This document shows, one piece after another, positions 30,999 to 34,993 of a stretch of DNA of 35,987 nt. Under the pieces are notes generated by a model. The model was not told the DNA's origin. It made no database searches and worked only from the letters and a program-made list of their open reading frames with translations. Within the stretch, counting starts at the first letter, position 1. Each line of letters starts with the position of its first letter. Source of the stretch: a bacterium (GTDB taxonomy: Bacteria > Actinomycetota > Acidimicrobiia > Spongiisociales > UBA5794). The stretch lies in contig JAAETI010000322.1 of assembly GCA_024228555.1 (NCBI GenBank), forward strand, positions 1 through 35,987. The letters run 5' to 3'. The position numbers and the translations under genes are program-made.

Positions 30999-33224
30999 AT
31001 GCGCGGCCGAGATCAGTCTGTACTAAACGAAGTCCTACCCCCCGAAGACCGGGTCATCGAGGCGGTTGTTGCGCGCTATCAACGTGTTGCCCCTGCGATC
31101 ACGCGTTTCGCCAGAGCCATCGCCGGCAAAGAAGACTTGGTTGTCCGCCTCGGCTCCCAAGCCTCGGGCAGCGAAGATGAAATCGTGCTCGATCCCGGTG
31201 TCTTCCAGGCGGCGTATGCCCGCAGCGCACCGGTGACCCCTGCTGAGGTTGCCCTGACCTCGGCCCTCCACGAGGTTGTCCACCTGCTCGCCTCCGACTT
31301 CGAGGAAATGCGTCCAATCCCCCGTGCCTGGCTGGCTCACCGCGAGGACAGAGAGACGACGGAAGAACCAGAGGAAATCGAAATCGCCATCCCGGCTCAG
31401 CCACCACTGATGTTCGAAGATGACGATCCGGACAGTCTCGACGTGGACATGGTTGCAGAACGGGCTCCGTTGGCGCCTGAGGATCAACCGGTCGCTCTTC
31501 TCGACGCCATCAGCAGTGTCGGCGGCCCGGCCGCGGAAGCGCTGTTCTTCTCGCTCGAAGACGCCCGCCAGGAACGGGTTCTCCTTGATGGGTTTGGCGG
31601 AGTCCGCTCTGTTCTTTCTGATCTGTATTTGGCCTCGATGCCGCGCGGGATGGAAGAAGCGCGTCCCCTAGGCCAGTATGCGCTGGCTTGCTTCATGATG
31701 GTTGGCGGGTACATCGGCAAAGACCGCCTGCAACGCATCCTGCCCCCACATGTCGGTGCGGCCCTCGACGACGCCCAGCCTTTTGTTGACGACGTGGCCG
31801 ACGCATCCGATCCGTGGACTGTCGGTGGACTCGCCCTGCAACTGCTCGAGGTAGCCCGTATCCACGGTTTGGCCCATCAGGTACAGCAAAGCGACTCGCG
31901 AACCGTCAAGACGGCAAAGAACGAGGACGACAGTTCTGCCATCAGCGACTCAGTGGATGCGGTCCGCATCGTCACTCCCCCGCTGCGCGACGCCGACTCC
32001 TACGACGAAACCAAGGCGGCCGCCCAAGCAGTGTCCGCCCAGCACGGAAAGGCCGGCGAAGCCGACCAAGCCGGCGACCCCGCCACCGAGCAACTGGTTC
32101 GCGTTTCGCAATCACCATCGATTTACCTACCGACAGGCCAGAGCGGCAAACTCGTTGTTGGCAACTTTCCCAGCCAGTTCCGCGACTTTGCCACCGAGGG
32201 TCGCGAACTCCTGGTCCACGCGGCCCGCCAGTGGGGTGTTGTGCAACGCCGTGTCGCCGGCGAGCTGTACCCGCTGTTTCTTGCCAACCAACGCCGCGGA
32301 TTGCGATCCGGGTTCGACGCAGGCGACCTTTCGCCATACGCCGCACTGCTGCTCGGTGCCGGCCTCTACGAGCGCATGTTCGAGCGCCGCGATCTGCCGA
32401 GTCGGCGTAGCTACGCCGTCAGCCTGCTTGTCGACGGTTCGGCTTCGATGCTGCAGCCATTGCAGTCGGCAGGCGTTCGCAAGACACCATGGGCTCTCGC
32501 CGCAGCGTCACTGGGGGCCTGGTCGTTGGCGCTGCTGTGCGACGAGCTACAGATCGACTTCGAGGTGGCCGTATTCAACCGATCGTTCCCTGCTTCACAT
32601 GACGACAGTGAGCGATCGTTTACCGAACGGCGCCACCGCGCCACTGGTGGACTGAAGCGTTCCCACAGCGGCTCGGCCGACCGCTTGACCAGAACAGTGA
32701 ACCACTATCTGGTCAAGCCTTTCGATGATCGCTGGCGCCGCCACGAGGACGTTCTGGCCGGCCTGTTCTACATGGCGGCTGCTCCTCGCGAAGCGAACCA
32801 GAAGGCGCGGAGAAACCCCGACATCGCTCCGCCGGTCTCCATGTTTGACAAGGCGGCCAATGTCGACGAATTCAACGTCACCTACGCAGCCCAGCGGCTG
32901 GCCGCCCGCTACGTATCGACTCGGATCTTGGTGGTGCTCGCCGACGGCATGACCAGGGGCTCCGTACAGGCTTTGGCCGCGTCCGTAGAACAAGCCGAGA
33001 AGACGGGCACCACCGTCCTTGGCATTGGTATCGGTGATGACACCGTCAACGCCGCATACAGCAGACACCAGGTTGTCGAACGACCCGAGGAACTGACCAG
33101 GGCCATGATTGATGGCGTCCGCTCCACGTTGCTGCAAACCATCGCGGCGGCTGGTGGAGAGACTTGGTGGGTTCAATCATCATCAGAACATCTTGCGCAA
33201 CAAAGGAGAGGCGCTAATGCCTAA
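30999..33224 (+). CDS. CobT-like protein with HExxH and VWA domains
   Basis: A 741-residue protein. The N-terminal half has a zincin-like HEVVH (91-95, in LTSALHEVVHLL) and a later FFSLEDARQERV segment (183-194) that could supply a third ligand (Glu192). A linker (about 300-365) is polar. The C-terminal VWA domain starts near 470 with the MIDAS motif DGSAS (479-483). CobT is the VWA partner of CobS in aerobic cobaltochelatase, but no CobN or other cobalamin gene is here, so a chaperone-like or metallopeptidase-linked role is possible. ATG 30999 is chosen over GTG 30981 and TTG 30972. The stop overlaps the next gene by 8 nt. Confidence 0.85.
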   Translation: MRGRDQSVLNEVLPPEDRVIEAVVARYQRVAPAITRFARAIAGKEDLVVRLGSQASGSEDEIVLDPGVFQAAYARSAPVTPAEVALTSALHEVVHLLASDFEEMRPIPRAWLAHREDRETTEEPEEIEIAIPAQPPLMFEDDDPDSLDVDMVAERAPLAPEDQPVALLDAISSVGGPAAEALFFSLEDARQERVLLDGFGGVRSVLSDLYLASMPRGMEEARPLGQYALACFMMVGGYIGKDRLQRILPPHVGAALDDAQPFVDDVADASDPWTVGGLALQLLEVARIHGLAHQVQQSDSRTVKTAKNEDDSSAISDSVDAVRIVTPPLRDADSYDETKAAAQAVSAQHGKAGEADQAGDPATEQLVRVSQSPSIYLPTGQSGKLVVGNFPSQFRDFATEGRELLVHAARQWGVVQRRVAGELYPLFLANQRRGLRSGFDAGDLSPYAALLLGAGLYERMFERRDLPSRRSYAVSLLVDGSASMLQPLQSAGVRKTPWALAAASLGAWSLALLCDELQIDFEVAVFNRSFPASHDDSERSFTERRHRATGGLKRSHSGSADRLTRTVNHYLVKPFDDRWRRHEDVLAGLFYMAAAPREANQKARRNPDIAPPVSMFDKAANVDEFNVTYAAQRLAARYVSTRILVVLADGMTRGSVQALAASVEQAEKTGTTVLGIGIGDDTVNAAYSRHQVVERPEELTRAMIDGVRSTLLQTIAAAGGETWWVQSSSEHLAQQRRGANA

Positions 33225-34212
33225 AACGGTGACTTTTACAGACCCCACCGGAGAGGGACCTCCGATAGACCTTGCCAGCGTCGTGGTTCCCGATGATTGT
33301 CCGGATCGCGATATCCGCCTCGGGCACATCCCGACCGCAGACCCCTACTATGTCGATCTGGGCATGCTGTATCGGCTTGCCCAACTCGAGGCAGTACGCC
33401 GCGACCATTTCTCGGACACCCCGTTGCATCTGGCCCTGCGCGGTCATATGGGGACCGGGAAGGATCATGATCTCGAGCAGTTCGCCGCCATGCTGGGAAT
33501 GCCCCACTACCGCATCCCTCTGACCGGCGAGGTGCGCGATATCACGTTGATCGGTTCCGTGAAGTTGCATGGCGACGGCAAGGGCGGCACCGAAAGCCGG
33601 TGGGAGGACGGTGACATCACCAGGGCCCTGCGGGGACCCGCGTTGGTCAACCTCTCCGAACTCAACGCTGCGGGTGCGGAAACTCTCTTTGCGCTACACG
33701 GTCTGCTGGATCGTCACCAGGCGCTAGAGCTGCCCACGGGCGAGATGGTTCGACTTCGCTCCGATGTGCGTGTGTTTGGCACCCTCAACCCGACCGACCT
33801 GCGGGACTACGCAGGCACGCAGACCCTCAACAAGGCTTTCGCCGACCGGTGGATAATCTGGGAGAAGGACTTCCCAGATGAACTCGAGCTGATGAGCATG
33901 TTGGAACGACGTCACCCCGATCTGAAGCAGGCATTTGCCGAGCCGATCTCGAAGCTTGCGGTTGAAGTAAACGCATCGTTCAGCTCGACCGATTCCCACA
34001 CCAGGGTGGAGACACCGATGAGTCTGCGTACCGTTCTGGACCGCCTCCCCGCCGGTCTCCGCGTCTACGCAGCGGCCAACGATCCGCTGCGCAGGGCGTG
34101 GGAGGAGTTTGTGCTCCCCCACGTCGACAAGTTCGACCGTGACCACTACGACACAGTTTGGTCTGCCGTTGCCCGCCGCGGCCCCGGCGAGACCCCATAC
34201 AAGAAAGGCTGA
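33217..34212 (+). CDS. CobS-like AAA+ protein with altered Walker motifs
   Basis: A 331-residue MoxR/CobS-type AAA+ protein. Walker A reads GHMGTGKD (76-83): the Lys is present but the usual Ser/Thr after it is Asp83. The segment after it (DHDLEQFAAML) parallels CobS's STHIEQVAARL. Walker B reads ALVNLSELN (142-150), with Ser147 where Asp is expected and Glu148 kept. A sensor-1-like GTLNPTD and an NKAFADRW segment follow. ATP binding may remain, but magnesium coordination and hydrolysis could be affected. AAAGGAG lies eight bases before the ATG. It is coupled to the CobT-like gene and lies 3 nt before yajQ. Confidence 0.85.
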   Translation: MPKTVTFTDPTGEGPPIDLASVVVPDDCPDRDIRLGHIPTADPYYVDLGMLYRLAQLEAVRRDHFSDTPLHLALRGHMGTGKDHDLEQFAAMLGMPHYRIPLTGEVRDITLIGSVKLHGDGKGGTESRWEDGDITRALRGPALVNLSELNAAGAETLFALHGLLDRHQALELPTGEMVRLRSDVRVFGTLNPTDLRDYAGTQTLNKAFADRWIIWEKDFPDELELMSMLERRHPDLKQAFAEPISKLAVEVNASFSSTDSHTRVETPMSLRTVLDRLPAGLRVYAAANDPLRRAWEEFVLPHVDKFDRDHYDTVWSAVARRGPGETPYKKG

Positions 34213-34215
34213 ACG

Positions 34216-34701
34216 ATGCCATCATTTGATGTTGTCTCTCAGGTAGACATGCAAGAGGTCCGCAACGCCGTTGATCAGGCATACCGCGAACTTGCCAATC
34301 GCTATGACTTCAAGGGCACCGACACCAAGATCAATCTCTCCGACGAGGGCATCTCCCTCGAGTCGTCCGCGGAAGGACGGCTCGAAGCCGCTATCGACGT
34401 GCTCAAGGGGCGTCTGGTGAAGCGCAACGTCTCTTTGAAGTCAATCTCGGGCGGTGAGATCAAACCATCGTCCGGGGGTCGATCGCAGACTCTCTTCACG
34501 TTGAGTCAGGGCATCCCCCAAGATGCCGCGAAGGAACTGTCGAAGGTCGTCAGGGATGCCAAGCTCAAGGTCCAGGTGCAGATCCAGGGTGATCAGCTAC
34601 GGGTCCAGGGCAAGAAACGCGACGATCTTCAAACGACGATCCAGATGTTGAAGGACCTCGACTACCGGTTGCCGTTGCAGTACGTCAACTTCAGAGACTG
34701 A
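34216..34701 (+). CDS. yajQ: YajQ/UPF0234 family protein
   Basis: A 161-residue protein with the YajQ signatures MPSFDVVSQVDMQEV, ANRYDFKGTDTKI, and a C-terminal VQIQGDQLRVQGKKRDDLQ with NFRD at the end. Two ferredoxin-like halves are expected. Family members bind nucleotides, and a Xanthomonas homologue binds cyclic di-GMP; the role here is unknown. It starts 3 nt after the CobS-like gene, so it belongs to that operon. No alternative start is needed. Confidence 0.95.
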   Translation: MPSFDVVSQVDMQEVRNAVDQAYRELANRYDFKGTDTKINLSDEGISLESSAEGRLEAAIDVLKGRLVKRNVSLKSISGGEIKPSSGGRSQTLFTLSQGIPQDAAKELSKVVRDAKLKVQVQIQGDQLRVQGKKRDDLQTTIQMLKDLDYRLPLQYVNFRD

Positions 34702-34993
34702 TCGGCTTCTTGGAGAAGGCGACCTTGCGCATCGGGACGAAACCCTCGCCGCTGTAGAGGCGACCGGAGCCCGCGTAGTGGAAACGACAGAGCGCGTCAG
34801 TGGAAACGACACGGTTTGTCAATCGATTTCGCTGCTTGCCGCTGCTCCCAGTCCACCTGACAACAAGAACAGAACCAAGTCCAACGCCTGTCCAAGTGCC
34901 GTTTGCAGGCACGTTTGGGGGTGTGCGTTCTCGTCCGATGTCTGGTGATCGGTACGGCTAGGGCCTACGAGTGCAGGTCGGTAGCATTCAGTC
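34702..34993. other. Intergenic region with a 13-bp direct repeat
   Basis: The segment between yajQ and the GNAT gene holds AGTGGAAACGACA twice, at 34777-34789 and 34799-34811, exactly 22 bp apart. A short minus-strand reading frame (34691-34912) ends in a segment that looks like a GNAT C-terminus (RLYSGEGFVPMRKVAFSKKP) but has no conserved upstream domain. It may be a decayed acetyltransferase remnant. Nothing else is recognisable. Confidence 0.4.

Follow-up and report, generated by a model that had tools for sequence, protein, structure and literature searches.

A CobS/CobT-like AAA+ and VWA gene pair of Acidimicrobiia with altered Mg2+-ligand positions and a zincin-like domain

Introduction

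MoxR-type AAA+ ATPases are encoded beside a partner with a von Willebrand factor A (VWA) domain, and the pairs of known function are chaperones (PMC9976466, PMC13036017). For the NorQ/NorD complex it was proposed that a finger of the VWA domain sits in the pore of the ring and that ATP drives twisting of the linker that joins the VWA domain to the N-terminal domain (PMC13036017), while the residues of the metal ion-dependent adhesion site (MIDAS) of NorD are required for function and dispensable for NorQ binding (PMC9976466). In group 2.2 jumbo phages, a vWA protein with an N-terminal metallopeptidase domain was described beside a MoxR ATPase (PMC7824862), and the peptidase annotation of a cyanophage cobT was called mistaken (PMC8651126). 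Here we analyze a gene pair of this kind on contig JAAETI010000322.1 (GenBank assembly GCA_024228555.1), a stretch of 35,987 nucleotides, hereafter the window, from an actinobacterium of the class Acidimicrobiia, order Spongiisociales. The pair encodes a VWA protein with an N-terminal HExxH motif and an AAA+ protein with unusual Walker residues. Our analysis suggests that it is probably a CobS/CobT-like (MoxR AAA+/VWA) ATP-driven remodelling machine that carries a zincin-like domain and serves a housekeeping target in Acidimicrobiia.

Results

A linked gene pair conserved in two orders

The two genes overlap by 8 bp in the window (Table 1). They stood together on the same strand in all 98 loci compared, some genomes being included twice, and the 8-bp overlap was present in 68 of these. 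Taken with the Pfam AAA_5 match (46.7 bits) and the VWA fold, this arrangement identifies a MoxR AAA+/VWA pair and supports the chaperone-type logic that a preliminary description, made from the DNA sequence alone, had suggested. An AAA+ profile search recovered the AAA+ gene as a single copy in 89 of 93 genomes of the order and in 48/48 genera, and the VWA protein, used as a query against 60 relatives, found matches in 57 and in all 41 good genomes. Within a 296-genome sample of the phylum, matches above 70% identity were confined to the window's own order; the runners-up, 37-39% identical, belonged to one other family (f43). A scan of the GTDB genome collection, based on short peptide patterns including the P-loop, which more divergent relatives outside the class would escape, returned 137 relatives. 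The best 80 of the 137 bore mostly Acidimicrobiia or other actinobacterial labels, with a few labeled as Acidobacteria or plainly as "bacterium".

A class-wide profile search with the VWA protein further revealed a divergent version in family f73 of a second order, whose genomes measure about 0.9-1.1 Mb and which, by size and kinship, is probably Ca. Actinomarinales. The pair was found in all ten second-order loci searched, with the VWA protein 29% and the AAA+ protein 58% identical to those of the first order. The motifs persist at this distance: HEAIH or HESIH in the VWA protein (10/10), and GHMGTGKDH with NLSELN in the AAA+ protein (10/10). For two of these loci the neighbors were listed, named by sequence likeness to genes identified in the first order; dapB-like, dapA-like and FtsK-like genes lay on one side and TIGR03084-like and BtpA-like genes on the other, flanks that are common to both orders. 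Since the pair occurs in both orders with conserved motifs, it is probably ancestral to both and was retained through genome reduction. Overall, the two genes look like vertically inherited, chromosomal, housekeeping-like core genes of mostly uncultured actinobacteria, and their place in the core gene set of two orders, kept even in genomes of about 1 Mb, points to a probably important role.

An invariant zincin-like motif shared with phage and plasmid proteins

The preliminary description had assigned HEVVH to residues 91-95, DGSAS to 479-483 and a possible metal ligand to Glu192 of the VWA protein, and had pointed to Asp83 and Ser147 of its partner; all of these positions were right, and HExxH, Glu192, Asp83 and Ser147 are strictly conserved across our alignments. 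His91, Glu92 and His95 are identical in the 93 aligned sequences of the order that cover those columns, and Glu187, Asp188, Arg190 and Glu192 in all 94 aligned rows. Together with HExxH in 10/10 second-order proteins, where position 188 is His and 192 is Glu, these counts indicate that the zincin-like motif is real. The claim of a complete MIDAS held in part: DGSAS (DxSxS) and Asp649 are present, and the Thr position of the textbook set aligns with Asn621, as in true CobT.

The AlphaFold2 model of the protein is good in its VWA part and poor, with low confidence, in its N-terminal part. Fold searches placed NorD of the NorQ-NorD complexes closest to the VWA fold (Z 17.6 over 229 residues, root-mean-square deviation 4.2) and the Rea1 MIDAS domain next (Z 17.1), and the predicted structure resembles phage CobT/VWA proteins over most of their length (best E 9.9e-13). 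By sequence, the Pfam domain CobT_C (PF11775) matched weakly, at 17 bits against a cut-off of 21. The low-confidence N-terminal model contains helices at residues 81-98 and 167-195 and strands at 48-51 and 61-64, an arrangement compatible with a zincin fold.

HExxH had also been put forward as the mark of a potentially distinct module, a claim that did not survive comparison with phage and plasmid proteins. CobT-like proteins of the Rhizobium phages RHph_N1_10 and RHEph10 and of Vibrio phage ICP2 contain HExxH, starting at residues 64-84, followed by N-x3-D-x3-E; the same holds for Roseobacter phage CRP-810, Gordonia phage FlyingTortilla and Microcystis phage Mae-Yong1326-1. The invariant columns among these six proteins are H, E, H, N, D, E and one Phe. 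Similarly, four plasmid-borne VWA proteins carry HExxH and a downstream DxxxE, and 32 of 37 viral-contig proteins agree, many of them near-identical, the remaining five being short or broken frames. Thus, both elements occur in all CobT-like proteins of phages or plasmids that could be read with the N-terminus intact. The viral-contig scans themselves were uneven: two of the single phage CobT queries returned few or no loci, a true CobT query gave none, and a plasmid-type CobT query returned 35 loci that form one narrow group. EDARQE of the window's protein aligns with NxxEDxxxE of the phage proteins, and a profile comparison with the phage N-terminal domain laid HExxH over HExxH and EDARQE over EDTMIE (P 1.1e-4). 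Several phage relatives weakly matched a "peptidase" family in PHROGs. As judged from these alignments, the zincin-like region is not peculiar to the Acidimicrobiia clade, and the jumbo-phage pair was already published (PMC7824862). That paper and PMC8651126 were the only relevant results of our literature search for previous accounts of HExxH in CobT-like proteins, most subscription journals being outside its coverage.

The helix around EDARQE offers a candidate third metal ligand. At position 188 the order and the phage proteins have Asp, the second order has His, and true CobT, which lacks HExxH, has Gln or Arg, so that the identity of this position varies together with the motif. Could the zincin-like domain nevertheless be dead or purely structural, and the pair a chaperone of the ordinary kind that, like NorQD or RavA-ViaA, serves metal insertion or complex assembly? 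Such a role would agree with the known MoxR/VWA pairs, all chaperones (PMC9976466, PMC13036017), and with true CobT, which lives without HExxH yet keeps an EQARVE helix. However, the His-Glu-x-x-His pattern stays invariant where overall identity falls to 29%, and it includes Glu92, the would-be catalytic residue; a metal site with a purely structural role could do without that Glu. We regard this alternative as possible and lean against it. The reading we prefer is that the N-terminal domain probably binds metal and cuts or holds a client; that it carries out actual proteolysis is conceivable, with the balance tipping slightly the other way.

Both Mg2+-ligand positions of the AAA+ protein are altered

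The best PDB sequence matches of the AAA+ protein were midasin, followed by CobS. In a textbook P-loop ATPase, the Ser or Thr after the P-loop Lys is a direct Mg2+ ligand and forms a hydrogen bond with the Walker B Asp. The canonical patterns GK[ST] and hhhhDE are replaced here by GKD and NLSE in 99/99 proteins of the order and 10/10 of the second order, and G76, G79, G81, K82, D83, H84, S147, E148, N191 and R211 are identical in all 99 order sequences. When aligned with true CobS, with CobS of phages, with an AAA protein of a halovirus and with same-genome MoxR proteins, only the present protein has Asp at position 83, the others having Ser or Thr, and Ser147 occupies the Walker B Asp position. 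Elsewhere in the alignment that Asp differs only in the f43 protein (Glu) and in one Gordonia phage protein (Asn). Four genomes of the order contributed 15 other AAA_5 matches with both motifs readable, all with GKT or GKS and DE. The alignments thus indicate that both Mg2+-ligand positions change together, from Thr/Asp to Asp/Ser, a carboxylate and a hydroxyl being kept with their places exchanged. The preliminary description had noted the residues as non-canonical; their invariance and joint change make them more interesting than it claimed. The matched Asp/Ser exchange offers a clean, testable exception to the textbook rule.

By position, Asn191 is sensor 1 and Arg211 aligns with the Arg of DRW in CobS. 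Since Glu148, Asn191 and Arg211 are unchanged, we favor a working ATPase, and the protein probably hydrolyzes ATP. A pseudo-ATPase, in which the Asp/Ser variant abolishes Mg2+-ATP hydrolysis and leaves a static, nucleotide-gated scaffold for the VWA/zincin protein, seems unlikely. Although both Mg2+-ligand positions are non-canonical where the 15 other AAA_5 proteins of the same genomes are canonical, one would expect some of Glu148, Asn191 and Arg211 to be lost from a dead ATPase, and these are invariant in 99 sequences and retained in the second order. The two changes also look matched.

Two further approaches to the AAA+ protein carried little information. Its AlphaFold2 model had a mean predicted local distance difference test score of 60 and gave meaningless Foldseek matches; a tree of the AAA+ core grouped the family with the f43 protein (moderate support), apart from true CobS, with long branches, and was not used as an argument. 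As for the individual relatives, in the CobS-like AAA+ protein of Gordonia phage FlyingTortilla (L168:3273-4508) Asn replaces the Walker B Asp and the P-loop Lys is preceded by Ala (GPTGSAKTS). The f43 proteins (L067:8997-10082 and L068:5041-6126, in genomes G282 and G101), which are 37-39% identical, combine a canonical Walker A with Glu for the Walker B Asp; inspected by eye, their neighbors include corrinoid-protein, methyltransferase and ASKHA-type ATPase genes and no recognized VWA partner. The f43 AAA+ protein may serve corrinoid activation.

A cobaltochelatase is very improbable

That the pair is an aerobic cobaltochelatase (CobNST) or a related metal chelatase with an unlinked large subunit is a reading already largely refuted and far less probable than any other considered here: the AAA+ protein is CobS-like (NCBIfam PD_CobS, TIGR01650, E 1.6e-11) and Asn fills the Thr position of the MIDAS, as it does in true CobT, but the PD_CobS score is 44 bits against a cut-off of 558.55, CobT_C is below its cut-off as well, true CobT lacks HExxH, and a CobN/ChlH-type protein (PF02514), detected in 5 control genomes, numbered 0 in the window's own genome, 1 in 93 order genomes and 0 in 10 second-order genomes. 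Because cobN is so nearly missing from both orders, cobalt chelation is very unlikely, as the preliminary description had suspected. The sole cobN-type gene among the 93 genomes (L171; G375:C48:12670-15834) is a full-length match in genus g230.

Proposed mechanism

In the mechanism that we propose, the AAA+ protein would form an ATP-binding ring whose pore receives a finger of the VWA domain, as in NorQD. A client would be held at two points, by the MIDAS-type site and by the N-terminal domain, and ATP turnover would twist the linker between these two parts. The N-terminal domain would bind Zn2+ via His91 and His95, with Asp188 (His in the second order) as the most likely further ligand, and would cut the client in a limited way or at least hold the metal. 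Around Mg2+, Asp83 and Ser147 would exchange the roles of the Walker A Ser/Thr and the Walker B Asp, with Glu148, Asn191 and Arg211 keeping hydrolysis possible.

Several points weigh against this proposal. The Asp/Ser variant could equally mark a nucleotide-binding, non-hydrolyzing ring. Pfam found no metallopeptidase domain in the VWA protein, the N-terminal part with the putative zinc site was modelled at low confidence, and the profile comparison with the phage N-terminal domain was moderate (probability 57%). Fold searches of the VWA-protein model returned no solved zincin, which says little because the VWA domain occupied the match list.

A bolder extension, which we consider improbable though worth stating, is an ATP-dependent metalloprotease of new layout, in which a CobS-like ring with exchanged Mg2+ ligands would drive clients via a MIDAS-type VWA adaptor to a zincin-like domain of the same polypeptide, forming a system for quality control or maturation that is core, possibly essential, in Acidimicrobiia and persists even in genomes of about 1 Mb. 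If this were true, the phage "CobST" would act in proteolysis or assembly instead of vitamin B12 synthesis, and true CobT would derive from such a protein by loss of the metal site. Vitamin B12 functions are commonly assigned to phage cobS/cobT genes, yet each of the CobT-like products examined here with a complete N-terminus has HExxH, a motif absent from cobaltochelatase CobT.

Table 1. Features of the gene pair and its downstream neighbor in the window
Feature	Position	Strand	Remarks
VWA protein, 741 residues	30999..33224	+	Open reading frame; start ATG 30999, stop 33222-33224
VWA protein layout			N-terminal zincin-like region, helical region, C-terminal VWA domain
HEVVH codons, residues 91-95	31269..31283	+	HExxH invariant
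EDARQE codons, residues 187-192	31557..31574	+	Candidate third metal ligand helix; Asp188 and Glu192 both invariant
AAA+ protein, CobS/MoxR (AAA_5) kind, 331 residues	33217..34212	+	Start ATG 33217; Pfam AAA_5 46.7 bits, cut-off 22
Walker A GHMGTGKD, residues 76-83	33442..33465	+	Asp83 in place of the usual Ser/Thr after the P-loop Lys
Walker B NLSEL, residues 145-149	33649..33663	+	Ser147 in place of the usual Asp; Glu148 retained
yajQ (DUF520)	34216..34701	+	Pfam DUF520 203 bits; neighbor in the window's family, not part of the module

Neighboring genes

A yajQ gene does lie downstream of the pair in the window, as first described. The further suggestion that the three genes form one potentially distinct module was not supported when neighborhoods were compared: yajQ was near the pair in only 36 of 98 loci, and 6 of these had it on the opposite strand. 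Among 19 genomes from pair-bearing lineages, 6 had no yajQ, and in the other 10 outside family f1 it was on another contig or far off. The linkage is mainly confined to the window's family, and the genes are unlinked in the second order. On the neighborhoods and the genome-wide search, yajQ is rejected as a functional partner.

Closest to the pair on the opposite strand of the window are genes for an RF-1-domain protein and an M16 peptidase as well as dapB, a name assigned from sequence; dapA and RNase J are farther away. Downstream of the pair, a LOG-family (TIGR00730) gene was present in 82/98 loci (for example L151:10244-11341); a TIGR03084-like protein gene was a neighbor in 65/98 and BtpA in 48/98. 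The succession of LOG-family, then TIGR03084-like and BtpA genes after the pair is an old synteny, and in the window's own genome the LOG gene is on a different contig. None of these regular neighbors indicates a clear client, and a PADLOC scan for defense systems gave no match.

Elsewhere in the window, the intergenic region after yajQ (34770-34830) contains the repeat GTGGAAACGACA twice, about 25 bases apart, and three consecutive tRNA genes (Val-GAC, Cys-GCA, Gly-GCC) occupy positions 2-278, all on the minus strand.

Comparison with known systems

NorQ/NorD, the MoxR AAA+/VWA pair for iron insertion into nitric oxide reductase, shares the VWA fold and the logic of the pair (PMC13036017). 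Its layout of N-terminal domain, linker and VWA domain recurs here with a zincin-like N-terminal domain; the pair differs in its Walker motifs, and no nor genes were seen beside it. Midasin/Rea1 likewise joins AAA+ modules to a MIDAS domain and was among the best PDB matches by both sequence and fold. It is, however, a single eukaryotic polypeptide with several AAA+ modules, and we know of no zincin-like domain in it.

True CobS and CobT (from S. meliloti, Pandoraea and Methylobacterium) share the CobS-like AAA+ core (GYHGTGKSTHIEQVAAR against GHMGTGKDHDLEQFAAM), a VWA domain with Asn at the MIDAS Thr position, and the E-x-A-R-x-E helix. In contrast to the present pair, GKS and DE are found in true CobS, whose partner CobN is missing here, and true CobT has no HExxH and carries Gln or Arg where Asp188 stands, Glu192 being kept.

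Close in design, too, are the jumbo-phage metallopeptidase-vWA/MoxR pair, for which the likeness rests on the published description of those proteins (PMC7824862), and the CobS/CobT pairs of phages and plasmids (ICP2, RHph_N1_10, CRP-810, Mae-Yong1326-1, FlyingTortilla). They have in common with the Acidimicrobiia pair an N-terminal HExxH with a DxxxE helix, a C-terminal VWA domain and an adjoining CobS/MoxR-type AAA+ gene. Many phage forms have a long acidic linker, which the pair here lacks, and most phage CobS proteins are canonical where the Acidimicrobiia protein has Walker A Asp and Walker B Ser. Unlike these mobile relatives, the pair is chromosomal, vertically inherited and single-copy across orders. 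What is new is thus a vertically inherited, cellular, housekeeping-like member of this group, with both Mg2+-ligand positions swapped in character.

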